A stretch of DNA of 64,000 nt from Acetobacter oeni (GTDB lineage: Bacteria; Pseudomonadota; Alphaproteobacteria; Acetobacterales; Acetobacteraceae): the NCBI RefSeq assembly GCF_011516825.1, contig NZ_WOTA01000001.1:1-64000 (forward strand), written 5' to 3'. The notes below the pieces were generated by a model, which had not been told where the DNA came from, did no database searches, and was given only the letters and a program-made list of their open reading frames with translations. Shown one piece after another: positions 11,524 to 23,343 of the stretch (positions are counted from its first letter, which is position 1; each line of letters opens with the position of its first letter). A program made the position numbers and the translations under genes.

Positions 11524-13434
11524 ATGGCTGAACAGGAGACCGGAACTCCGTCGACCTCGACCGGAGCGGAACAGCATGAATTCAGCGCGGAGGTCGGACG
11601 TCTTCTCGATCTTGTCGTCCATTCTCTTTATTCCGAACGTGAGATTTTTCTGCGTGAACTCGTCGCAAATGCGGCAGATGCGACAGATAAACGGCGGTTC
11701 GAGGCGCTGACGGATGGTGCCCGCGCTTTGCCGGATGATGCGAAAATTCGCATTAATCCTGATAAGGATGCCCGGCTGCTGACCATTTCTGATGATGGTT
11801 CCGGCATGAGCCGGGAAGAACTCGTCAGTAATCTGGGAACGATTGCCCGTTCGGGGACACGTGCGTTCGGCAAAGAACTGGAATCTGCCAAACCGGAAGA
11901 TAAGCCAAATCTGATTGGTCAGTTTGGTGTCGGCTTTTATGCCGCCTTTATGGTGGCGGATCGGGTTGAAGTTGTCTCACGTCGTGCCGGATCGGATGAG
12001 GCATGGCGCTGGGTATCTGAAGGAAAAGGTGCCTATACGATTGAGCCTGCGACGCGTGACAAAGCGGGCACCGACATCACGCTGCATATAAAAGAAGATG
12101 CGGACGAATTTCTTGAGCCATGGAAGCTTCAGGAGATTATCCGCAAATGGGCGGATCATATTTCCTGGCCTGTTACCATTTTGAAAGACGACGGTGAAAG
12201 CCCGGCCAATGAAGGTACAGCATTGTGGCGGAAGCCGAAAAGCGAACTAACCGACGATCAGATCAATGATTTTTATCGTCATATCACGCATAATTTCGAT
12301 ACCCCCTGGGCAACACTTCACTGGCATGCCGAAGGGACGATAGAATTTAGCGCCCTGCTGTTTATCCCCGGGTCCCGTCCGTTCGAATTTGGTGAACAGT
12401 CTCGGGAAAGTAAGATTCGCCTGCATGTCCGGCGCATGTTCATTACTGACGATGCGATGCTGCTTCCCGCATGGCTGCGTTTTGTTCAGGGCGTGGTGGA
12501 CACGGAAGACCTGCCGCTGAACGTCTCACGTGAAATGCTGCAATCGACGCCGGTTCTTGCGCGTATCCGCAAGGCTGTCACAGGTCGCGTGCTGAATGAA
12601 CTTAAATCCCGCTCATCTGACGCAGATTCATTCCTGACATTCTGGGAAAATTTTGGCTCGATTATCAAGGAAGGAATCTGGGAGGATGCCGAGCACCGTA
12701 CCGAACTGGCCGGTCTGGCCCGTTTCCGGTCGAGTGTTCTCTCTGTCACCGAAAATTCAGGGGATACGCCGAACTCCTGGACAACTCTGGTCGATTATAT
12801 TTCCCGGATGAAGCCAGAGCAGGACGCGATTTACTATCTCACAGGTGATAATGAAGAGGCGCTTGCCAGTTCACCGCAACTCGAGGGTTTTCGGGCGCGC
12901 GGGATCGAAGTTTTGCTGCTGTCCGAGCCGGTTGATTCTTTCTGGCCGGACCGTTTGACCAGCTTTGAAGGTAAGTCGCTGAAGAGCGTGACTCAGGGCC
13001 ATGCGGATCTTGAAAAGTTTCTGGTCGAGGGTGAGGCTGCGGAAGGAGAAGCCGCAGATCTGGAAATTCTGATCCCGGCGCTCAAAGAAGCTCTGGGCAA
13101 CGATGTTTCAGACGTCCGGGGTACTGATCGTCTGGTCACCAGTGCGGTTGTTCTGGCTGCTCCGGAGCATGGCATGGACCTGCAGATGCTCAAGCTTATG
13201 CGACGCAGTGGGCAGAAAGTCCCGGAGACAGCACCCATACTGGAGCTGAATCCTCGTAACGACCTTGTGAGGGAGCTTGCGCGTAAGGCTGCCGAGAAAA
13301 GTGCCGCAGTCAGCGAGTTGGCAAAAGTTCTTCTGGATGTTGCGCGTATTCAGGACGGGGAAAGCCCGAAAGATCCCGCTTTGTTTGCTCAGCGTCTGAC
13401 CGGGTTGCTGGCAGAAGCTGTCAAAGTCGGGTGA
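11524..13434 (+). CDS. htpG: Molecular chaperone HtpG (Hsp90)
   Basis: A 636-residue bacterial Hsp90. The N-terminal ATPase domain shows [40 protein letters not shown] and [13 protein letters not shown]; the middle domain includes [11 protein letters not shown]. Length is typical for HtpG. It is a dimeric ATP-dependent chaperone acting late in cytosolic protein folding under heat or other stress. The ATG at 11524 follows a GAAGGGGA ribosome binding site. It is a single-gene unit ended by a perfect 11-bp hairpin. Confidence 0.97.
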
Positions 13435-13552: not shown

Positions 13553-15379
13553 TCAGGTCCCGAAAGTTTCGCGTTTTACTTCGAGTTCGAGCCACTGCTC
13601 TTCTGCTGTTGTCAGCGCGCGCTCGGCAGTGTCGAGTGCTTCGGTGTGGCGATTAAAAGCTTTCGGGTCGCGGGAATAGAGATCAGCATCAGCCAGTTTC
13701 CTGCGAAGCTTTTCGATCTCCGTTTCCAGCTCAGCGATCCGGCCAGGCAATTTCTCCAGGGCATGCTGGTCTTTATAAGACAACTTTCGTGTACCGACAG
13801 TTTTTTGCGTCGGAACCAAAGAGGGCAGAGCTTTCTCATGCTCCGGAGAGGGGTGCTGTTCCGGAACATGTCGTTCGTCAGGTGCTACACCCGCACGCTG
13901 CGCCAGCATGTCGCTATAGCCGCCAGCATATTCGGTCCATGAGCCGCCCCCCGTTGCTACCAGAACTGATGTTGCAACGCGGTCAAGAAAGTCGCGGTCG
14001 TGGCTGACAATCAGAACTGTTCCGTCATAGGCCGCCAGCATTTCCTGCAGAAGATCGAGTGTTTCAAGATCGAGATCATTTGTCGGTTCGTCGAGAACAA
14101 GCAGATTAGAGGGACGTGCAAGCGCACAGGCCAGCATCAGGCGCCCCCGTTCTCCACCTGACAGCCGTCCGACCGGAGTGCGTGCCTGCTCAGGACGAAA
14201 CAGAAAATCTTTCATGTAACCAATGACATGCCGCTTTTCATCTCCGACCTGAACCATATCGCCGCCACCGCCGGTCAGCGTGTCGGCAAGTGTCCGGTCC
14301 GGATCAAGGGCACGGCGTTGCTGGTCGAGTGTAATCATGGCGACGGAAGGCCCTAGGGTAACGGTGCCGGAGTCCGGAGTATCAACGCCCGTCAGCAACC
14401 GGAGCAGTGTGGTTTTGCCAGCTCCGTTCGCTCCGACAATCCCCATTCGGTCCCCTCGTATGACCCGAAGATCCAGATTTTTTACGATTGGTCTGTTGCC
14501 CCATGCCTTGGACACCTGCTCCGCTACGGAAACGAGCTTTCCGGACTGGCCTGTTGTCTGGGCTGTCAGGGTGACATTTCCCTGTGGACGTACGGCGTCC
14601 ATGCGTGCCGCACGAAGAGCTCCCAGTTCGGCTACCCGGCGGACATTCCGTTTGCGGCGTCCCGTGACGCCGTAGCGCATCCAGTCTTCCTCACGGGCAA
14701 TCTGTCGATCAAGTTTGTGGGCATCACGTTCTTCCTGCTCAAGAACCTCCTCGCGCCATGTTTCGAACCGCTCAAAACCCTGATCGAGACGTCGTGTTGT
14801 TCCCCGCTCGAGCCAGACTACGCTGCGTGACAGGGTTTCAAGCAGACGTCTGTCATGACTGATAATGACCATGGCTGTGCGAAGAGAAAGCAATTCGCGT
14901 TCCAGCCACTCAATGGTTGGCATGTCGAGGTGATTCGTAGGCTCATCAAGGAGCAGGACATCCGGTTCAGCGGCAAGAACACGGGCGAGAGCACAGCGTC
15001 GCGCTTCGCCACCCGACAAAGTCGCCGGATTTTCCTCCGGACTCATCCCGAGTGCGTCGAGCATGGCGCTGGCACGCCACTCGGCGGAAGGATCGGTCAG
15101 ACCGGCAAGAACGTAGTCGAGTGCGGTATTGTGTCCTGAAAGATCGGGCTCTTGCGGAAGGTAGCGCAGAGTCGTCCCGGGCTGGAGAAATCTGGTGCCG
15201 GAGTCAGCTAAAATTTCCCCGGCCGCAATGCGAAGAAGCGTTGATTTTCCGGAACCATTGCGTCCGACAAGGCATAGCCTTTCGCCCGCAGAGATCGAGA
15301 ATCCGGTCCCTTCCAGTAATGGTTTCCCACCAAGAGTGAGAGTGATGTCCTGAAGCAGGAGAAGAGGAGGAGCAGCCAT
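13553..15379 (-). CDS. uup: ABC-F family ATPase, Uup-type
   Basis: A 608-residue soluble protein with two ABC ATPase domains and no membrane segment. The first has GRNGSGKST, LSGGEARR and LLLDEPTNHLD; the second has GANGAGKTT, LSGGERGR and LVLDEPTNDLD. The C-terminal about 80 residues form a charged coiled coil (EKLPGRIAELETEIEKLRRK), the feature separating Uup from EttA. Uup proteins act on ribosomes or branched DNA and affect transposon excision. It lies 80 bases upstream of phyR's stop on the same strand, so it may share the phyR transcript. Confidence 0.88.
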   Translation of the reverse strand: MAAPPLLLLQDITLTLGGKPLLEGTGFSISAGERLCLVGRNGSGKSTLLRIAAGEILADSGTRFLQPGTTLRYLPQEPDLSGHNTALDYVLAGLTDPSAEWRASAMLDALGMSPEENPATLSGGEARRCALARVLAAEPDVLLLDEPTNHLDMPTIEWLERELLSLRTAMVIISHDRRLLETLSRSVVWLERGTTRRLDQGFERFETWREEVLEQEERDAHKLDRQIAREEDWMRYGVTGRRKRNVRRVAELGALRAARMDAVRPQGNVTLTAQTTGQSGKLVSVAEQVSKAWGNRPIVKNLDLRVIRGDRMGIVGANGAGKTTLLRLLTGVDTPDSGTVTLGPSVAMITLDQQRRALDPDRTLADTLTGGGGDMVQVGDEKRHVIGYMKDFLFRPEQARTPVGRLSGGERGRLMLACALARPSNLLVLDEPTNDLDLETLDLLQEMLAAYDGTVLIVSHDRDFLDRVATSVLVATGGGSWTEYAGGYSDMLAQRAGVAPDERHVPEQHPSPEHEKALPSLVPTQKTVGTRKLSYKDQHALEKLPGRIAELETEIEKLRRKLADADLYSRDPKAFNRHTEALDTAERALTTAEEQWLELEVKRETFGT

Positions 15380-15459: not shown

Positions 15460-16197
15460 TCAGGGAAGAGGGACCCCGCCTGTGATGGCCTGATATGTCG
15501 CGGTTGCCAGCGTCATGGGTTCGAACGGTTTGGTGATGACGAAGGACGGTTCGACGGTGTTACCTGTCAGAAGACATTCAGGATAAGCAGTTACGAAGAT
15601 CACCGGGACAGTCATGGACTGCATGATTTCGGTGACGGCATCCATGCCATTGCCACCGTCACCGAGATTGATGTCGGCAAGAATCAGACCGGGGCGTGTT
15701 TCCTTTGCAAGGGCAACAGCTTCTGCCTGCGTATGTGCAACCCCCGCCACAGTATGACCACATCGCAGAACAAGATCTTCAATGTCCATGGCGATAATCG
15801 GTTCGTCTTCAATAATCAGAATTGACGTCTGGGAGACGGAGCGGATTGTTTTATGTGCCGCGGCGATCTGAGCTTCCGCTTCTTCAGGCTTCAGTTCCAG
15901 AATTCTGGCTGCCTGTCCGGCCGACACGCCTTCGAGCGTAGTAAGAAGTAAAAGCTCACGCTGTATGAGGGTGAGTGTATGTGGCTGCTCCCCATCGCTC
16001 AGGCTTGCCGCTTTTTGCGAAATCGCGCGATACAGACCATGGCGGGCCGGAAGCGCTTCTCCCGCGCGGGATGCAAGATCACGGAGGCTTTCAGCAACCA
16101 GAAGGTCGCCACGTGGCTGGCTTCCGGTCAGGGCCCGTGCATAACGTCGCGCATAGGGGAGGGCGCGGATCAGTTCGCTTCGTTGCGAATCGGGCAT
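15460..16197 (-). CDS. phyR: PhyR, response regulator and anti-anti-sigma factor of the general stress response
   Basis: A 245-residue protein with an N-terminal sigma-like domain (residues about 1-120, including LPYARRYARALTG and LLLTTLEGVSAGQAARIL) and a C-terminal receiver domain (ILIIEDEPIIAMDIEDLV, phospho-acceptor Asp in LILADINLGDG, then FVTAYPE). This order is unique to PhyR. When phosphorylated, its sigma-like domain binds NepR and frees EcfG. The gene is divergent from the ECF sigma gene with 54 bases between the starts, and nepR and a kinase follow on the other strand. Confidence 0.95.
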   Translation of the reverse strand: MPDSQRSELIRALPYARRYARALTGSQPRGDLLVAESLRDLASRAGEALPARHGLYRAISQKAASLSDGEQPHTLTLIQRELLLLTTLEGVSAGQAARILELKPEEAEAQIAAAHKTIRSVSQTSILIIEDEPIIAMDIEDLVLRCGHTVAGVAHTQAEAVALAKETRPGLILADINLGDGGNGMDAVTEIMQSMTVPVIFVTAYPECLLTGNTVEPSFVITKPFEPMTLATATYQAITGGVPLP

Positions 16198-16251: not shown

Positions 16252-16848
16252 ATGGCGGACCATGATCAGAAAAGGGCCTGTTTTCTGAGTGCTGCGGCAA
16301 ATTCCGATTGTGCGCCAGTGCCAGGAAACAATACGAAGGCAGAGAATGCTTCTGCTTCATCCCGGTTTCGTGATGAAATCGTTGGTCTTTTGCCTGAATT
16401 ACGCGCTTTTTCGCGTTTTCTGAGCCACGACAGGGTGCGGGCTGATGATCTTGTACAGGAAGCTGTCATGCGGGCTCTTGCATCACGGGCGCAATTTGAT
16501 CCTTCGACAAATCTGAAAGCCTGGACTTTTACCATTTTGCGCAATTTATTCTACGAGCAGGGGCGTCGCCGCAAACGTGAGCAGGCGGTTCTGGAACAAT
16601 ATGGTTCAGGCACCCGTATGAATGCCAGTCCGGATGCTGATTCTTATCAGGTATCCGATCTCGACAGCATGCTCTGGCAACTGTCGCCGCTTTTGCGTGA
16701 AGCTCTGATGCTCGTCGGAGCCCAGGAGATGTCATATGATGAGGCGGCTGTTATCTGTGGTGTGGCTGTCGGAACGATGAAAGCCCGTGTCTCCCGGGCT
16801 CGCGCGGCGCTTATCGCAATTCGGGATTGCGCCGTGAAAGACAATTAA
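16252..16848 (+). CDS. ECF sigma factor, EcfG type (first copy)
   Basis: A 198-residue sigma-70 family protein with region 2 (LPELRAFSRFLSHDRVRADD, LKAWTFTILRNLFYEQGRR) and region 4 (LLREALMLVGAQEMSYDEAA, GTMKARVSRARAAL). VGAQEMSYDEAAVICGVAVG fits the EcfG group that directs the alphaproteobacterial general stress response. The N-terminal about 40 residues are non-conserved. It is divergent from phyR and followed by a second ECF sigma gene and nepR. Which of the two sigmas NepR holds cannot be read from sequence. Confidence 0.88.
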   Translation: MADHDQKRACFLSAAANSDCAPVPGNNTKAENASASSRFRDEIVGLLPELRAFSRFLSHDRVRADDLVQEAVMRALASRAQFDPSTNLKAWTFTILRNLFYEQGRRRKREQAVLEQYGSGTRMNASPDADSYQVSDLDSMLWQLSPLLREALMLVGAQEMSYDEAAVICGVAVGTMKARVSRARAALIAIRDCAVKDN

Positions 16849-16970
16849 ACGGGTCTGTTTTCTGCTCTGGTATGAATGGTCTCTCGTTTTCGTGATATCT
16901 TTCTTCAGGTTCGATGCAACCAAATCAGTTCCCCATTCATTCATTGTTCAGAATAAGGGGAATAAAGATA

Positions 16971-17555
16971 ATGGCTGATACATTCCATACCCAGATTGTT
17001 TCTATCCTGCCGAAGCTTCGTGTTCAGGCTCTCGCTCTGACCCGCAATCGCGCACAGGCTGAAGATCTGGTTCAGGATGCGGTGTGCAACGCTTTGAATG
17101 CACGCGACAGCTTCATTCCCGGAACGAATTTTGCGGCATGGATGCATCGTATCCTTCGTAACCGTTTCATATCGGATCTCAGAAAACAGCGGGCTACATC
17201 TGACATTGATGATGTTCCGGGTGAGCTTTTGTCCAGTAAGGCGGATCACGAAGACCGCCTGGCTGTGAAAGATCTTGGATATGCTCTGGCCCGACTTCCG
17301 GATGACCAGCGTGAGGCGCTGGTTATGGTTGTGCTGCATGGTATGAGCTATCAGGAGCTGGCGGAATCCACAGGATGTGCTGTGGGAACGGCAAAGAGCC
17401 GTGTCTTCAGGGCGCGGCGTCAGCTTGAAGCCTGGATGACCGGGGAGCTTCCGGAAGATGACGGGTTGCGTCAGCGTGCATCTGCGTTGCGTAACGAGGT
17501 TGATCGCCGGAAAATGATGGGCGCAGCAACCCGTTCGAACGGGTTGCGTGGATAA
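16971..17555 (+). CDS. ECF sigma factor, EcfG-like (second copy)
   Basis: A 194-residue sigma-70 family protein with region 2 (LPKLRVQALALTRNRAQAEDLV, AAWMHRILRNRFISDLRK) and region 4 (LPDDQREALVMVVLHGMSYQ, GCAVGTAKSRVFRARRQL). The ATG at 16971 follows AAGGGGAATAAAG, a good ribosome binding site; the frame is open to 16914 but the extra residues are not family-like. It sits between the first sigma gene and nepR, as ecfG does in canonical loci. It diverges clearly from the first copy, so this is not a recent tandem duplication. Confidence 0.88.
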   Translation: MADTFHTQIVSILPKLRVQALALTRNRAQAEDLVQDAVCNALNARDSFIPGTNFAAWMHRILRNRFISDLRKQRATSDIDDVPGELLSSKADHEDRLAVKDLGYALARLPDDQREALVMVVLHGMSYQELAESTGCAVGTAKSRVFRARRQLEAWMTGELPEDDGLRQRASALRNEVDRRKMMGAATRSNGLRG

Positions 17556-17595
17556 ATTAAGATTCGGGGAATAAATTTTTAAGCCGGGGTATGGT

Positions 17596-17832
17596 ATGGT
17601 GACCCATTCTTTCCCGGCATCGCGCCCGGAGCCTTTGGAACATTTGCCGGGATGGTTGTCGATGTCGGCCAGGGACGAGAAGTCCGTATCTGCGAAAAAA
17701 AGCAGAAAAAGAGGGGACGACGCCTTTGAGATATGGCTCCGGCGTGGGTTGCATCAGCTTTTTGATGATGTGGCAAAGGAGCCTGTCCCGGAGGAATTGC
17801 TGAAGATTATCGAAGAGGACAGGGATTCATGA
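17596..17832 (+). CDS. nepR: NepR anti-sigma factor
   Basis: A 78-residue protein. Its C-terminal half, WLRRGLHQLFDDVAKEPVPE then ELLKIIEE, matches the NepR core helices that clamp EcfG. The N-terminal half is variable and basic (SAKKSRKRG), as usual. It lies 40 bases after the second sigma gene. An ATG at 17662 is an alternative start that keeps the core; I kept 17596 because GGGG lies just upstream. The partner switch is PhyR-P binding NepR and releasing the sigma factor. Confidence 0.9.
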   Translation: MVTHSFPASRPEPLEHLPGWLSMSARDEKSVSAKKSRKRGDDAFEIWLRRGLHQLFDDVAKEPVPEELLKIIEEDRDS

Positions 17833-18014
17833 GGCGACTTCGCCGAAGATTTTTGTCATTTTCTGAATAATCTCTGGCGGGCTGATTGTGTGTGTCCCTG
17901 TAAAAACCTCTTTGCCCCGCAATTATCCTGTAATCTGAACCTGTTGCGAATTCCTGCGGATTTTCTGAGGGCTGTTATGGCTTGCATCTCATGAAAGTGG
18001 TGTCGGGAGAGCAG

Positions 18015-19772
18015 ATGCTGCAGCAGCGCAAGAAGGGTATGCTGCGAGTCGCTTTTTGCTTTGCCCGGCTCTTCGATTCGGTCAGAGCGCGTATGGCCAC
18101 TATAATTATAGGCTCTGTTTTGCCTGTGGCTATTCTCGGAACTATTCTCATCTGGCAGGACTACGGAAATCTTTCCAGAAGCAGCGAGCGGCGCAGTGAA
18201 ATCGCGGTCAGGGAGATCGACCAGCATCTGCGACATGATGCTGAGCGCACGGTCGCTATGTTGCAGACACTTAGCGACTCGATGGTGGATGATGATTCAG
18301 CCCGGCGGCTTTTACAGCTCGCGCAGTCAGCAAGTGGAACGCGCTACTGTCTGTTAGCTATCGTCGATAGTGACGGAGCAATTGCGCATCAGTTAACAAC
18401 GACTTCGGGTTCTTTTAAATCCTGCGAAAGCGGGGCGAGGCCGGCTATTACGTATGAAAAATCTGCTGCCATCTGGGTTGATAACGGGCGTCCGTATCTC
18501 AGTGTGCGGGTCCCCGTATCCGTAACATCCCTCAATAGATCAGATGACAGGTCTACGTTTCTGATAGCGATCGAGCCCCTTGATCAGACTGCAATCCCAT
18601 CTCAGACACATTTTTCATCGGACGGAGGAACTGCACCGCGGCTGATGACTAATGCAGAAGCATGGCTGATGGCGCCGGATGCCGGCCTGGTCTCCTTGTG
18701 TTCGGATTGTGGCTGGCCTCCCCCCGATGGCGCGATCATCCGTAAGCTTGTCAGTCTCGCGACCGAAGATGTTCTGGGAAGATCATCCCTGCAACTATCG
18801 AGTCGCTTTTGTGCTTATGGCCCGGTTGGTGGTGTAGGAACGGTTGTTGTGGAGGCTGCACGCCTTCCGCAGGAAACGCGAACTATGTGGATGCTTGGCG
18901 TCTGGATCGCTCTCGTGCTTGCGCTCCTGCTGGCCGGCCTCGCGGGGGTGATGATCGCAGGGCATCGTCTCGTTATTCATCCTCTGCGCAGGCTGACTGA
19001 AGCTGTGCAGGAATGGGAGCGGGCAGGAGCGTTCGATGCTTCGGTAAGTCTTTCCGCGCCGCAGGAATACAGGAAACTTGCCTGGGCGTTCGGGACCGCT
19101 ACACGTCGTCTGGCAAGACGCGAGCAGGAACTTCAGAAAGCTGTCAATCATCAGAAGATACTTCTGGGAGAAATCCACCATCGCGTTAAAAACAACCTGC
19201 AGATTGTGGCTTCTCTGCTCAGCCTGCAGGGGAGTCGGATCAGAGACGATGACGTCCGGCAGGAGTTTATGCTTGCCCGCGATCGTGTGAGAACACTCGA
19301 AACGCTCCACAGGCATCTTTATGTTGAGGGTGAGCTTGAAAGCCTCAACATGAACAGTTTCCTCGACGAACTCAGCGCACAGCTTCTCACTGCCGCAGGG
19401 CAGGACGTGCGGTCGCGCATTGTAATGCATGTCGACGCCGGCGGCATTGTGATGGCACCGGATCAGGCGACATCAATTGCTCTGATTGTATCGGAAGTGG
19501 TTTCAAATGCGCTAAAATTTGCATTTCCAGGGGACCGTCACGGTACAATTTCGATTTCGATGTCCCGGACCGGTAACCTTATAACACTCATCATCGCGGA
19601 TGACGGGATTGGCCTTTCGACGTCGGCTGACAATGGTGATCGGGAAGGAATCGGTCTGCAACTGATCCGGGGATTTGCGCGGCAGATATCTGCAAGCCTC
19701 CGGGTTGAAGAAGGTGACGGGACACGATTTATCGTTGAATATTCCGTGCCTGCAAACCGCGCCCCAACATAG
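18015..19772 (+). CDS. Membrane sensor histidine kinase, HisKA_2/HWE-like (PhyK-type)
   Basis: A 585-residue protein with a membrane segment near residues 28-50, a periplasmic sensor domain of about 220 residues (with cysteines), a second membrane segment (MLGVWIALVLALLLAGLAGV), a HAMP-like linker and a kinase core. The H-box EIHHRVKNNLQIVASLLSLQ has His388-His389; VVSNALKFAFPG and ADDGIGLS are N and G boxes. This kinase class typically phosphorylates PhyR, and it sits directly downstream of nepR. I chose the ATG at 18015 because GGGAGAG lies six bases upstream; an in-frame TTG at 17982 is possible. Confidence 0.85.
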   Translation: MLQQRKKGMLRVAFCFARLFDSVRARMATIIIGSVLPVAILGTILIWQDYGNLSRSSERRSEIAVREIDQHLRHDAERTVAMLQTLSDSMVDDDSARRLLQLAQSASGTRYCLLAIVDSDGAIAHQLTTTSGSFKSCESGARPAITYEKSAAIWVDNGRPYLSVRVPVSVTSLNRSDDRSTFLIAIEPLDQTAIPSQTHFSSDGGTAPRLMTNAEAWLMAPDAGLVSLCSDCGWPPPDGAIIRKLVSLATEDVLGRSSLQLSSRFCAYGPVGGVGTVVVEAARLPQETRTMWMLGVWIALVLALLLAGLAGVMIAGHRLVIHPLRRLTEAVQEWERAGAFDASVSLSAPQEYRKLAWAFGTATRRLARREQELQKAVNHQKILLGEIHHRVKNNLQIVASLLSLQGSRIRDDDVRQEFMLARDRVRTLETLHRHLYVEGELESLNMNSFLDELSAQLLTAAGQDVRSRIVMHVDAGGIVMAPDQATSIALIVSEVVSNALKFAFPGDRHGTISISMSRTGNLITLIIADDGIGLSTSADNGDREGIGLQLIRGFARQISASLRVEEGDGTRFIVEYSVPANRAPT

Positions 19773-19877: not shown

Positions 19878-21605
19878 ATGAACGAGAGCAAGGCGGCGAT
19901 CCGGGCGTGGACCCGTGCGCAGGCGCGCCTTGGCCTGCGTATGGCCCGGCCGTCCATAATTCTGAGTGTGATGTCGTGCCTGCTGGCTGCTGCGCAGATG
20001 TGGTGCATAGCCAATATTCTTGGGCCGGCCCTTACAACATTGCTTCCTCTGTCCGGTGCGGCAGGAGTTGATGAGCCGTTATGGCCTTTTATCGGCTTTA
20101 TCGCCGCGGCGCTTCTGCGCGTTGCGGTCAATATTACCAGCGAACTGTCAGCCGCCGCCGCCGGGCGCGCTGCGCGCAGACGGCTTCGCAGCGAAGTGTT
20201 GTCCGCAATCGTCGGAGCGGGGCCTGCCGTTCTTCGGCAGGCGCATAGTGGTGCCCTGGCATCCCTCGCTGTTGATCGCATCGAAGCGCTGGACGGATAT
20301 TTTTCCCGATGGGCGCCTGCTTCCGTGCTGTGGATCATTGCGCCGGCCTGTCTTTTACTGTCTGTCCTGTGGGCTCAGCCACGTGCCGCTTTGATCCTTG
20401 CAATCTGCGGCGCCGCAGTGCCTGTTGCACAAGCGGTCTTTGGAGTTGGTGCCGCCGTTGCCTCTCGCAATCAGTTTCTTGCGATGACCCGTCTTCAGGC
20501 CCGTTTTCTGGATCGTATTCGCGGCATTGCAACGATCGTCCTGTCCGGTCGCGCCGATGAAGAAGCTTTGCATCTTTCTGAAGCCGCCGAAGATCTGCGT
20601 GTGCGGACGATGAAAATTCTGCGTATCGCATTTCTTTCATCGGCCTCCATCGACTGTGCGATGATCGTTGCGCTCATCGCTATTGCCATTGCCGACGGCC
20701 ATCATGCTCTTATCGCCACGAGTGGCGCCGATCGTCAGTATCTGCCTCATTTTGTGGTCGACAGTCTTTTCGCCCTCCTTATTGTCCCGGAGTTTTTCGC
20801 GCCATTTCGCGGCCTCGCTCTGGCTTATCAGGACAGGGCTCTGGCGCAGGGAGCCGCCGCGGAGATTCTTGCCCTTCCGGAGCCGCAGCCGCTAACCGAA
20901 GGACAGCCGGTTCGCACGGTCGAGGCGCATGGGGTGACGATCGTTTTTGAAGACGTAAGCTTCACATGGGATGCGTCGCGCGGTCCGGCGCTTGACCATG
21001 TGTCTTTTACTGTACCAGCTGGTGAGACTACGGTTCTTGCCGGGCCGTCCGGCTCAGGTAAGTCGACGGTTATGGAACTGCTGCTAGGTTTTATCCGGCC
21101 TGACAGTGGCCGTATTATTTTTAATGGCGCGGATATGCAGACTATCGTGCCCGAAGCCCTTGCAAAAATGACGTCGTGGATAGGCCAGCGGCCAGTCCTG
21201 TTTGCGGGTACGCTGAGGGAAAATATTACTTTCGCAAAACCGGATGCAAATGTCGAAGAGCTTGCCGCCGCCCTGCGCTCCTCTGCTGTTGACCGATTTC
21301 TTTCCGAACTTCCTGATGGCCTGGAGACAATCATCGGTGAAGGCGGATTCGGGCTTTCCGGCGGGCAGGCGCAGCGTATCGCTATCGCGCGAGCCTATCT
21401 GAAGAATGCACCGGTTTTGTTGCTTGATGAACCGACCGCTTATCTTGATCCGGTGACTGAAGCTGATGTTTTTGAAAGTCTGAAGCGTCTTGCCCTGAAG
21501 CGCACGGTCATTCTTGCGAGCCATTCGACGGCCGTCCATATGTTCACCGGACGCCGGGTTGATCTCGTGCATGGTCGTGTCGCGGCCCGACAGGGGGCGG
21601 CATGA
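19878..21605 (+). CDS. cydD: ABC transporter CydD (thiol reductant exporter, cytochrome bd assembly)
   Basis: A 575-residue half-transporter with an N-terminal six-helix membrane domain (to about residue 320) and a C-terminal ATPase domain (GPSGSGKST, LSGGQAQRIAIARAY, LLLDEPTAYLD). Followed by cydC, it forms the heterodimer that exports glutathione/cysteine to the periplasm and is needed for cytochrome bd maturation. CydD and CydC are told apart by order and N-terminal sequence. cydAB are not in the window, although in many bacteria the four genes are together. Confidence 0.9.
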   Translation: MNESKAAIRAWTRAQARLGLRMARPSIILSVMSCLLAAAQMWCIANILGPALTTLLPLSGAAGVDEPLWPFIGFIAAALLRVAVNITSELSAAAAGRAARRRLRSEVLSAIVGAGPAVLRQAHSGALASLAVDRIEALDGYFSRWAPASVLWIIAPACLLLSVLWAQPRAALILAICGAAVPVAQAVFGVGAAVASRNQFLAMTRLQARFLDRIRGIATIVLSGRADEEALHLSEAAEDLRVRTMKILRIAFLSSASIDCAMIVALIAIAIADGHHALIATSGADRQYLPHFVVDSLFALLIVPEFFAPFRGLALAYQDRALAQGAAAEILALPEPQPLTEGQPVRTVEAHGVTIVFEDVSFTWDASRGPALDHVSFTVPAGETTVLAGPSGSGKSTVMELLLGFIRPDSGRIIFNGADMQTIVPEALAKMTSWIGQRPVLFAGTLRENITFAKPDANVEELAAALRSSAVDRFLSELPDGLETIIGEGGFGLSGGQAQRIAIARAYLKNAPVLLLDEPTAYLDPVTEADVFESLKRLALKRTVILASHSTAVHMFTGRRVDLVHGRVAARQGAA

Positions 21606-21633
21606 ATACGGTTCCGGCAAGGGAGTTCATTCT

Positions 21634-23343
21634 GTGAGTGACTCAATGCCTGATTTTCCTAATGGTGCCCGCAACAGGAAGGAGGGGGCCGATCGCCATG
21701 CGCTTGTGCGAATCATGGAGGTCTGGCGCCCCCATGCTGTCCGTCTCGCAGTCGGGCTGGTCTTATCGCTTCTGGCTGTAATGGCGGGCCTGGCGCTGAT
21801 GAGCAGTGCCGGACTACGGTTTGCCGGAGCGGCGCTGGGTGTTGTTATTGTTACCACAGCCTCCTTGCGGCTTCTGGGTATAAGCCGCGTCGCGCTTCGC
21901 TACAGCGAGCGACTATTCGCGCATGATGCGATGTTCCGGGCTCTGGCAACGCTTCGTGTCTGGTTCTTCAGATCACTTGCCAGCGGTGCGGCTGCCGGTC
22001 TCGGGTTCCGTCGCGCCGGTGATCTGTTGTCCCGTCTCGTGTCGGACGTTGAAGTTCTGGACGGGCTTTATCTCAGAATTCTTCTGCCACTGGCCGGTGC
22101 CTGTGTTACGTTCCCGGTTCTCGTTGCGGTCATATTTCGGACAAATCCTCTCCTTGCTGTTCTTGTTGGCGTGCTGTTCTGCGCTTCAGCATTCGTGGTT
22201 CCGCTGGCTGCCGCACGTGTAAGCCGGAAGGAGGGAGGTGCACTGAACCGTGCTCAGGCCGGGCTTCGTGTCGGTGTGCTCGATCTGGTTGGCGGCATGC
22301 GGGAGATCAGGGCATTCGGTGCGGAAACGCGAATGCTGGATCGGGTGACATCCGATAATGATACCCTGTTGAGACGTCAGGCCGAATTATCAGCCCGGAT
22401 GGCTTATGCAGGCGCGTTTTCTCAGTGCTGCACCCAGCTTGCCATCCTTCTCGTTCTGACAGCGATTGCCGGTGTCGGGTTTGCGCGCATCCCTGTTGTG
22501 CAGGGGATCGGAATTCTGTTTCTGACGCTGGCCGCATTTGAGAGCGCGTCCGGGCTGACGCGGGCCGGAATGCTGGCTGGAAACATGGGCGCCGCCGCGC
22601 GCCGTGTTGTTGCCGTTGCGGAAAAACAAGGAACACCGGATGCTTCCGTGGTTCAGTCTGATGAGATGCCGGCAAATTTTGATATCCGTTTTGAAGATAT
22701 TGATTTTCGCTGGCAGCCCGGGAGAGCACCGGTGCTCGATAATTTTTCTCTCGAGATTCCGGCAGGCTCGCGGGTCGCACTTCTTGGTTCTTCCGGAGCC
22801 GGAAAATCCACAGTAGCGGCATTGCTGCTGAAAGCGGCGTTCCCGCAGGCCGGCCGCATTCTTCTGGGCGGGGTCGATATTGCGACTTTGCCGGATACCT
22901 GGCTCCGAAGAAAAATCGCCTGGTTATCGCAGGCAACTCATCTTTTCGATGATACGATCCGGAATAATCTTCTGCTGGGCGCACCGCAGGCCACTGAAGA
23001 GGCGCTCTGGAAAGCTCTTGATGAGGCGGCCATAGGCGATTTTGTCCGAACTTTGCCTGAACAGCTTGATACCTGGCTCGGCGAAGGGGGGGTGAAGGTT
23101 TCAGGCGGGCAGGGAAGGCGGATTGCGCTTGCAAGGACGCTCTTGTCGGATGCCCCCGTGATCGTGCTTGATGAGCCGGCTACCGGGCTCGATGCGCAGA
23201 CTGAGCAGGAGTTTTTCAGAACTCTGAATACTGTCGCTGCTCATCGTTCGGTCTTGCTGATCGCTCACCGTCTGACGGGCGTTGAGAAGCTGGATCGTGT
23301 CTGGAGAATTTCCGGAGGCAGGGCGACAGCCGCTACAGCGTGA
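21634..23343 (+). CDS. cydC: ABC transporter CydC (thiol reductant exporter, cytochrome bd assembly)
   Basis: A 569-residue half-transporter: membrane domain to about residue 330, then ATPase domain with GSSGAGKST, VSGGQGRRIALARTL and IVLDEPATGLD. It pairs with CydD. The frame is open back to 21514 inside cydD, but the GTG at 21634 with AAGGGAG upstream is the likely start and leaves a 28-base gap after cydD. In acetic acid bacteria a cyanide-insensitive bd-type quinol oxidase often works in acid, which would be the physiological reason for this pair. Confidence 0.9.
   Translation: MSDSMPDFPNGARNRKEGADRHALVRIMEVWRPHAVRLAVGLVLSLLAVMAGLALMSSAGLRFAGAALGVVIVTTASLRLLGISRVALRYSERLFAHDAMFRALATLRVWFFRSLASGAAAGLGFRRAGDLLSRLVSDVEVLDGLYLRILLPLAGACVTFPVLVAVIFRTNPLLAVLVGVLFCASAFVVPLAAARVSRKEGGALNRAQAGLRVGVLDLVGGMREIRAFGAETRMLDRVTSDNDTLLRRQAELSARMAYAGAFSQCCTQLAILLVLTAIAGVGFARIPVVQGIGILFLTLAAFESASGLTRAGMLAGNMGAAARRVVAVAEKQGTPDASVVQSDEMPANFDIRFEDIDFRWQPGRAPVLDNFSLEIPAGSRVALLGSSGAGKSTVAALLLKAAFPQAGRILLGGVDIATLPDTWLRRKIAWLSQATHLFDDTIRNNLLLGAPQATEEALWKALDEAAIGDFVRTLPEQLDTWLGEGGVKVSGGQGRRIALARTLLSDAPVIVLDEPATGLDAQTEQEFFRTLNTVAAHRSVLLIAHRLTGVEKLDRVWRISGGRATAATA

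Follow-up and report, generated by a model that had tools for sequence, protein, structure and literature searches.

Additional EcfG genes were reported in 2013 to occur in half of the completed alphaproteobacterial genomes, with a role that the available part of that report describes as not satisfactorily explained (PMC3892343). The nearest described parallel to the locus analysed here is Sphingopyxis granuli TFA, in which, within the available text of the source, EcfG2 drives nepR2-ecfG1 from a GGAAC-N16-CGTT promoter, ecfG2 is divergent from nepR2-ecfG1 with nepR before ecfG1, and the ecfG2 gene itself is without an EcfG-type sequence upstream (PMC7083833). The likeness lies in two EcfG genes per locus, one of them beside nepR, and in one factor that drives (in Acetobacter, would drive) the other's nepR-ecfG operon (PMC7083833, available part); in Acetobacter, by contrast, phyR is followed by both ecf genes in tandem and only then by nepR, and the promoter reads GYAAC-N16/17-CATT. 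The Caulobacter sigmaT/sigmaU pair is similar in that one EcfG factor controls expression of the second and different in that sigmaT is reportedly autoregulated as well (PMC7083833, same part). Several EcfG factors alongside few NepR proteins are described in M. extorquens and Rhizobium etli (PMC4814048, PMC3892343 and PMC8103513, in the portions available); the second R. etli EcfG gene differs in being plasmid-borne and separate from the first, and some promoter sequences of the R. etli factors are reported to be distinct, with no pairing of one residue with one base in those portions. Canonical-type loci share with the Acetobacter locus a divergent phyR, an EcfG factor, usually NepR and often a HisKA_2 kinase, but have a single ecfG, placed after nepR, with GGAAC-N16/17-CGTT upstream of it in 19 of the 37 canonical-type loci that we chose from fetched loci (8 of them from this family; nepR was detected in some but not all of the 37). 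To our knowledge, the Caulobacter sigmaT and sigmaU genes share no locus of the kind described below.

The window, that is, the whole 64,000-nucleotide stretch of Acetobacter oeni DNA analysed here, carries these genes in the order phyR (minus strand), ecf1, ecf2, nepR and a HisKA_2 kinase gene. The anti-anti-sigma response regulator PhyR (15460..16197, minus strand, 245 aa) matched NCBIfam NF006623 (sigma-like domain plus receiver) at 281 bits (cut-off 240), PF22029 at 41.3 bits and PF22233 at 28.3 bits (both cut-offs 27), and its sigma-like domain has one match in the assembly (E ≤ 1e-4). Beside it lies ecf1 (16252..16848, plus strand, 198 aa), encoding a fast-evolving EcfG-type sigma factor, followed by ecf2 (16971..17555, plus strand, 194 aa; the program-made list of open reading frames puts its start at 16914), encoding a conserved one that adjoins nepR. 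Both proteins consist of sigma2 and sigma4 domains only (PF04542 and PF08281, above the Pfam cut-offs), both have 5uxx_A as their best solved relative, and they are 41% identical over 151 aa. The anti-sigma factor gene nepR (17596..17832, plus strand) fell below cut-off with PF18557 (23.6–24.2 bits, E 4.1e-5; cut-off 25.7) and with NF051865 (26.5 bits; cut-off 100), and a profile of its relatives led to the solved NepR 3t0y_B (E 2.3e-5), the sole chain at E ≤ 0.1; its frame is open from 17596, yet conservation across the family begins only at 17662. The PhyK-like sensor kinase (17982..19772, plus strand) exceeded the cut-off of PF07568 (77.3 bits), scored 158 bits against NF051872 (PhyK; cut-off 750) and is thus classed as HisKA_2 only; it is the probable input of PhyR, and some of the tandem loci have a comparable kinase 3′ of nepR. 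The preliminary description of this DNA had noted two diverged EcfG-type genes in tandem before a single shared nepR, the first neighbouring phyR and the second nepR. The coordinates above agree with each of these points, the order departs from phyR-nepR-ecfG, and the sharing of nepR holds across the assembly, which contains two EcfG-like genes (E ≤ 1e-10) and one NepR match. On either side, 11524-13434, 13553-15379 and 19878-23343 presumably encode HtpG, an ABC-F ATPase and a CydDC-like exporter pair, which they resemble by eye.

The arrangement had been presented as special to this locus; instead, it is widespread. Among 120 genomes sampled from the family, 89 had an ECF1 match, and 54 of the 78 genomes among the matches listed had the two ecf genes adjacent and co-oriented, with nepR next in 54 of 54 (window copies L001 and L112 are excluded from locus counts); the order phyR-ecf1-ecf2-nepR thus recurs across the family more than chance would allow. 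The tandem locus was interrupted by contig ends in two genomes (G012 and G017). It was split into phyR-ecf1 and ecf2-nepR-kinase in G043 (L162/L163, mid-contig) and in G449 (L197/L274, ~190 kb between the parts), neither of which has lost any of the four genes. Four genomes (G020, G028, G042 and G115) had ecf2-nepR without ecf1, and in nine family genomes the EcfG belonged to the canonical clade, immediately preceded by nepR in eight of them (G426 and G456, whose sequence was partly unread, do not enter the tally of ECF1 losses); no architecture is given for 8 of the 78 (G002, G038, G050, G051, G058, G075, G082 and G099). The same locus occurs in Acetobacter tropicalis and A. senegalensis (records L032 and L033), L032 clustering with a congener of the window in the 94-row tree described below, and, outside the family, in L113, L114, L116 and L117 (among 30 loci taken from 85 matching genomes in a class sample of 289). 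Two further genomes stood out: one with a lone ECF2 gene (L183, 4908-5360) beside genes like those downstream in the window, 2.2 Mb in size (G407) and with no NepR (E ≤ 1e-4) and no PhyR (E ≤ 1e-8) match; the other, G088, with six NepR-like matches, of which one (C1:4596815-4596940) belongs to the tandem locus and five lie elsewhere.

Phylogeny, which the preliminary description had named as a check and as a possible source of refutation, placed neither sigma factor outside EcfG in either of two trees. In the 94-row tree (short, surplus and near-identical rows thinned; ECF1 of L014 and L020 absent because their frames were read too short), EcfG including ECF1 and ECF2 was split from an outgroup of only three Bacteroidota rows with support of 100/100, ECF1 and ECF2 each formed a clade (99/94 and 100/97, respectively, that of ECF2 taking in two non-tandem rows), and the EcfG backbone was without resolution. 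A second tree, which included in-family canonical genes and omitted long-branch rows, the outgroup, most Sphingomonadaceae rows and three in-family ECFs, was concordant. With ECF1 and ECF2 each forming its own clade, the tandem pair is, on these sequence comparisons, old. A recent tandem duplication is ruled out, both clades being family-wide; a joint ECF1 and ECF2 clade apart from all other EcfG was compatible with the data (p-AU 0.27 and 0.413), so an ancient tandem duplication is possible. The two proteins have diverged at different rates: across 33 tandem loci, mean pairwise identity was 0.555 for ECF1, 0.775 for ECF2, 0.607 for PhyR and 0.70 for NepR, with ECF1 below ECF2 in 528 of 528 locus pairs and below PhyR in 454 of 528 (the near-duplicate L033 is excluded here and from the word count below). 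Mirror-tree comparison with NepR, a short protein, gave no signal (rank correlations 0.05 and −0.04).

A count of words in the ecf1-ecf2 gap revealed two that are conserved and that together form G[C/T]AAC-N16/17-CATT. This element was present in 33 of the 38 tandem ecf1-ecf2 gaps (shuffles: mean 0.08, maximum 2) and in none of 33 phyR-ecf1 and none of 33 ecf2-nepR gaps; under the loosest pattern, the counts were 37 of 38, 1 of 33 and 2 of 33, respectively. All 18 additional loci with both genes also carried it (20 were fetched, two of them without ecf2 in the stretch; L195 and L200 seem to repeat the L032 and L033 genomes). The copy in the window constitutes a predicted EcfG-like promoter of ecf2, and possibly of ecf2-nepR, on the plus strand (16916..16941: GCAAC at 16916-16920, N17, CATT at 16938-16941), ending 29 bases 5′ of the ecf2 start codon. 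Variants outside the family form a graded series from the canonical sequence, with GGAAC-N16-CGTT in L114, GCAAC-N16-CGTT in L113 and GTAAC-N16-CATT in L116 and L117, leading to mostly G[CT]AAC-N17-CATT in the family; since the L114 and L113 variants are spaced from ecf2 much as the element is, they link it to the EcfG promoter. The canonical GGAAC-N16/17-CGTT itself had no match in the window and occurred in 2 of the 38 tandem ecf1-ecf2 gaps; in its strict form on the plus strand, it was found in 1, 2 and 1 of 33 gaps in tandem loci (before ecf1, 1 of 33). L020 has an additional GGAAC-N16-CGTT match, and there the match nearest ecf2 was counted. For the shift of the −10 element from CGTT to CATT, we saw no matching change in the sigma factors.

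The −35 element was more informative. In E. coli sigmaE, S172 contacts base −34, the second base of GGAAC (PMC3397946 and PMC6713349, in the parts available). Gapless alignment (for ECF1, to 2h27_A and 1or7_A) places ECF1 Ala178 (codon 16783..16785, plus strand) and ECF2 Ser143 at this position, and together with the covariation it marks Ala178 as the predicted reader of the second −35 base. Across 56 promoter-bearing loci (split genomes included; duplicates L195, L200 and L011 removed; the near-identical L186 and L187 both kept), the second base was C or T in 54, with ECF1 Ala (48), Thr (5) or Val (1), and G in two (L114 and L197), both with ECF1 Ser (Fisher P = 6.5e-4, uncorrected for descent). 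Restricting the comparison to 56 adjacent tandem loci gave 54 with C or T and Ala (46), Thr (7) or Val (1), one with G and Ser, and one (L024) without a promoter. Only 4 of 176 ECF1 columns separated the C/T loci from the G loci, three of them hypervariable and the fourth the S172 equivalent, and 0 of 197 ECF2 columns tracked the base. One of the two Ser loci had been forecast: G426 and G456, relatives of G449, have GGAAC, and in G449 (85% DNA identity to G456 over 1.2 kb at phyR) ECF1 indeed has Ser and ecf2, ~190 kb away, is preceded by GGAAC-N17-CATT. Such coupling of residue and base in trans favours ECF1 as the factor that reads the promoter; the combination of Ser and G occurs in two genomes only, which leaves about two events behind the covariation. 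ECF1 Ala also occurs where the promoter was not recognisable (L024 and the split locus of G043), and ECF1 Ala and ECF2 Cys stand side by side in L168 and L169.

From the gene order, the two clades, the conserved promoter and the covariation, we infer, for Acetobacteraceae and some relatives, a two-step PhyR-NepR-EcfG general-stress-response switch in which ECF1 would transcribe ecf2-nepR from a private promoter, a reading that we think rather probable. ECF1, which adjoins phyR and as a rule lacks an EcfG-type promoter of its own, would be the first sigma factor: by analogy with the known switch, stress would lead PhyR to sequester NepR and free ECF1, which would then transcribe ecf2 and nepR, and perhaps the kinase gene, from G[C/T]AAC-N16/17-CATT. 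ECF2 would in turn act on a set of targets of its own, and newly made NepR, presumed to bind both sigma factors, would close a feedback loop. The privacy of the promoter would come from the change of the ECF1 S172 equivalent from Ser to Ala or Thr as the second −35 base changed from G to C or T; ECF2 still has Ser, and should therefore stay off the promoter. That this insulated pair arose within EcfG by joint drift of residue and base, with at least one return to Ser and G in the window's genus at sites ~190 kb apart, seems to us about an even proposition.

The leading alternative to an ECF1-driven ecf2-nepR promoter is that ECF2 autoregulates its own operon, with ECF1 parallel and dispensable. 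Autoregulation is common among EcfG factors in the available text of PMC7083833, and the canonical promoter upstream of ecfG in the canonical-type loci counted above is in keeping with it; furthermore, ECF1 is absent from the ECF2-NepR loci of several lineages, and none of the 70 genomes that could be assigned, out of the 78 listed, was recognised as having ECF1 but no ECF2. ECF1-less genomes that keep the promoter also count against ECF1 as its reader: L147 and L149 retain GCAAC-N17-CATT and L178 a variant, GCAAC-N16-CGTT. However, ECF2 in these three loci has Cys instead at the S172 position, and may read the promoter there (in the likewise ECF1-less L146, ECF2 has Cys and the element is absent), whereas in 52 of the 54 tandem loci with GCAAC or GTAAC it keeps Ser, the reader of GGAAC, and none of its columns follows the −35 base. 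In one genus (g42), the promoter was found in 5 of 5 fetched ECF1-positive genomes and in 0 of 5 ECF1-less ones, a contrast that probably reflects one event and in which the promoter may have left with the same deletion as ecf1; two of these five ECF1-less loci (L173 and L174) have GGAAC-N16-CATT ~284 bases 5′ of ecf2, either by chance or as a site that ECF2, with its Ser, could read once ECF1 was lost. We regard ECF2 autoregulation with a dispensable ECF1 as unlikely.

Other readings dispense with a hierarchy or with ECF1 function altogether. A single NepR might govern two EcfG factors that act in parallel, or leave one of the two uncontrolled. This would be consistent with two intact EcfG factors and a single NepR match, and an M. 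extorquens NepR that binds two EcfG paralogues in two-hybrid tests (PMC4814048, available part) shows that such sharing can occur; against it, the ecf1-ecf2 gap holds a conserved promoter that covaries with ECF1, which implies a serial link, and we rate a purely parallel arrangement as quite improbable. Taken together, this sequence evidence points to a series, with ECF1 acting on the ecf2-nepR promoter, rather than to two parallel outputs. ECF1 might also be a degenerating sigma factor or a PhyR-like decoy for NepR, as its low conservation relative to ECF2 and PhyR, a PhyR_sigma2 match at 40.9 bits and its absence from some lineages could suggest. Its core residues (W, I and RN of sigma2; GT-K-R of sigma4) are, however, fixed or nearly so (0.95–1.00), and the same DNA-binding residues are kept in ECF2 and lost from the PhyR of tandem loci (except one sigma2 Arg, 0.89), so neither sigma factor resembles a decoy, and decay or decoy function is very doubtful. 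Finally, discovery of the element rested on conservation alone, and it could in principle be an operator or the promoter of some other sigma factor, unrelated to ECF1 and ECF2; its 16/17 spacing, its graded change from the canonical promoter (L114 and L113) and its covariation with an ECF1 residue make this explanation scarcely credible.

If ECF1 does act in series with ECF2, the tandem locus would suggest a concrete role for an extra EcfG gene, combining a cascade, negative feedback and a private promoter. The covariation of residue and base would make cross-talk between sigma paralogues a question of one codon and one base, and the insulated pair, if true, would be a natural record of paralogous stress sigma factors becoming orthogonal. 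Our search, which covered literature outside subscription, found no account of an EcfG/NepR/PhyR system in Acetobacter or Acetobacteraceae, and, relative to the literature found, both the conservation of the tandem locus and the joint change of a −35 base and the residue that would recognise it appear to be new.

Searches for further targets centred on whole genomes. GGAAC-N16/17-CGTT occurred 79 times in G000 versus 81 times at wrong spacing, giving no excess that would reveal ECF2 targets there; even genomes with canonical loci had no clear excess of this sequence, so such whole-genome counts are uninformative. A strict search of G000 for the drifted promoter gave 5 matches versus 2 in the control. 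Across six genomes, 26 strict matches lay outside ecf2; of the 21 inspected, 17 were inside open frames, and no second target was common to the genomes, so ecf2 may be nearly the only gene that the promoter serves; alternatively, the pattern may be too stringent, as the ecf2 sites of G117 and G022 escaped it. One additional site was seen in a second copy in G006 (L160), a 4.3-kb stretch with no phyR or nepR match, in which GTAAC-N17-CATT lies upstream of an ECF2-like gene (1928-2401) and, by its sequence, may mark this gene as another target served by the drifted promoter.
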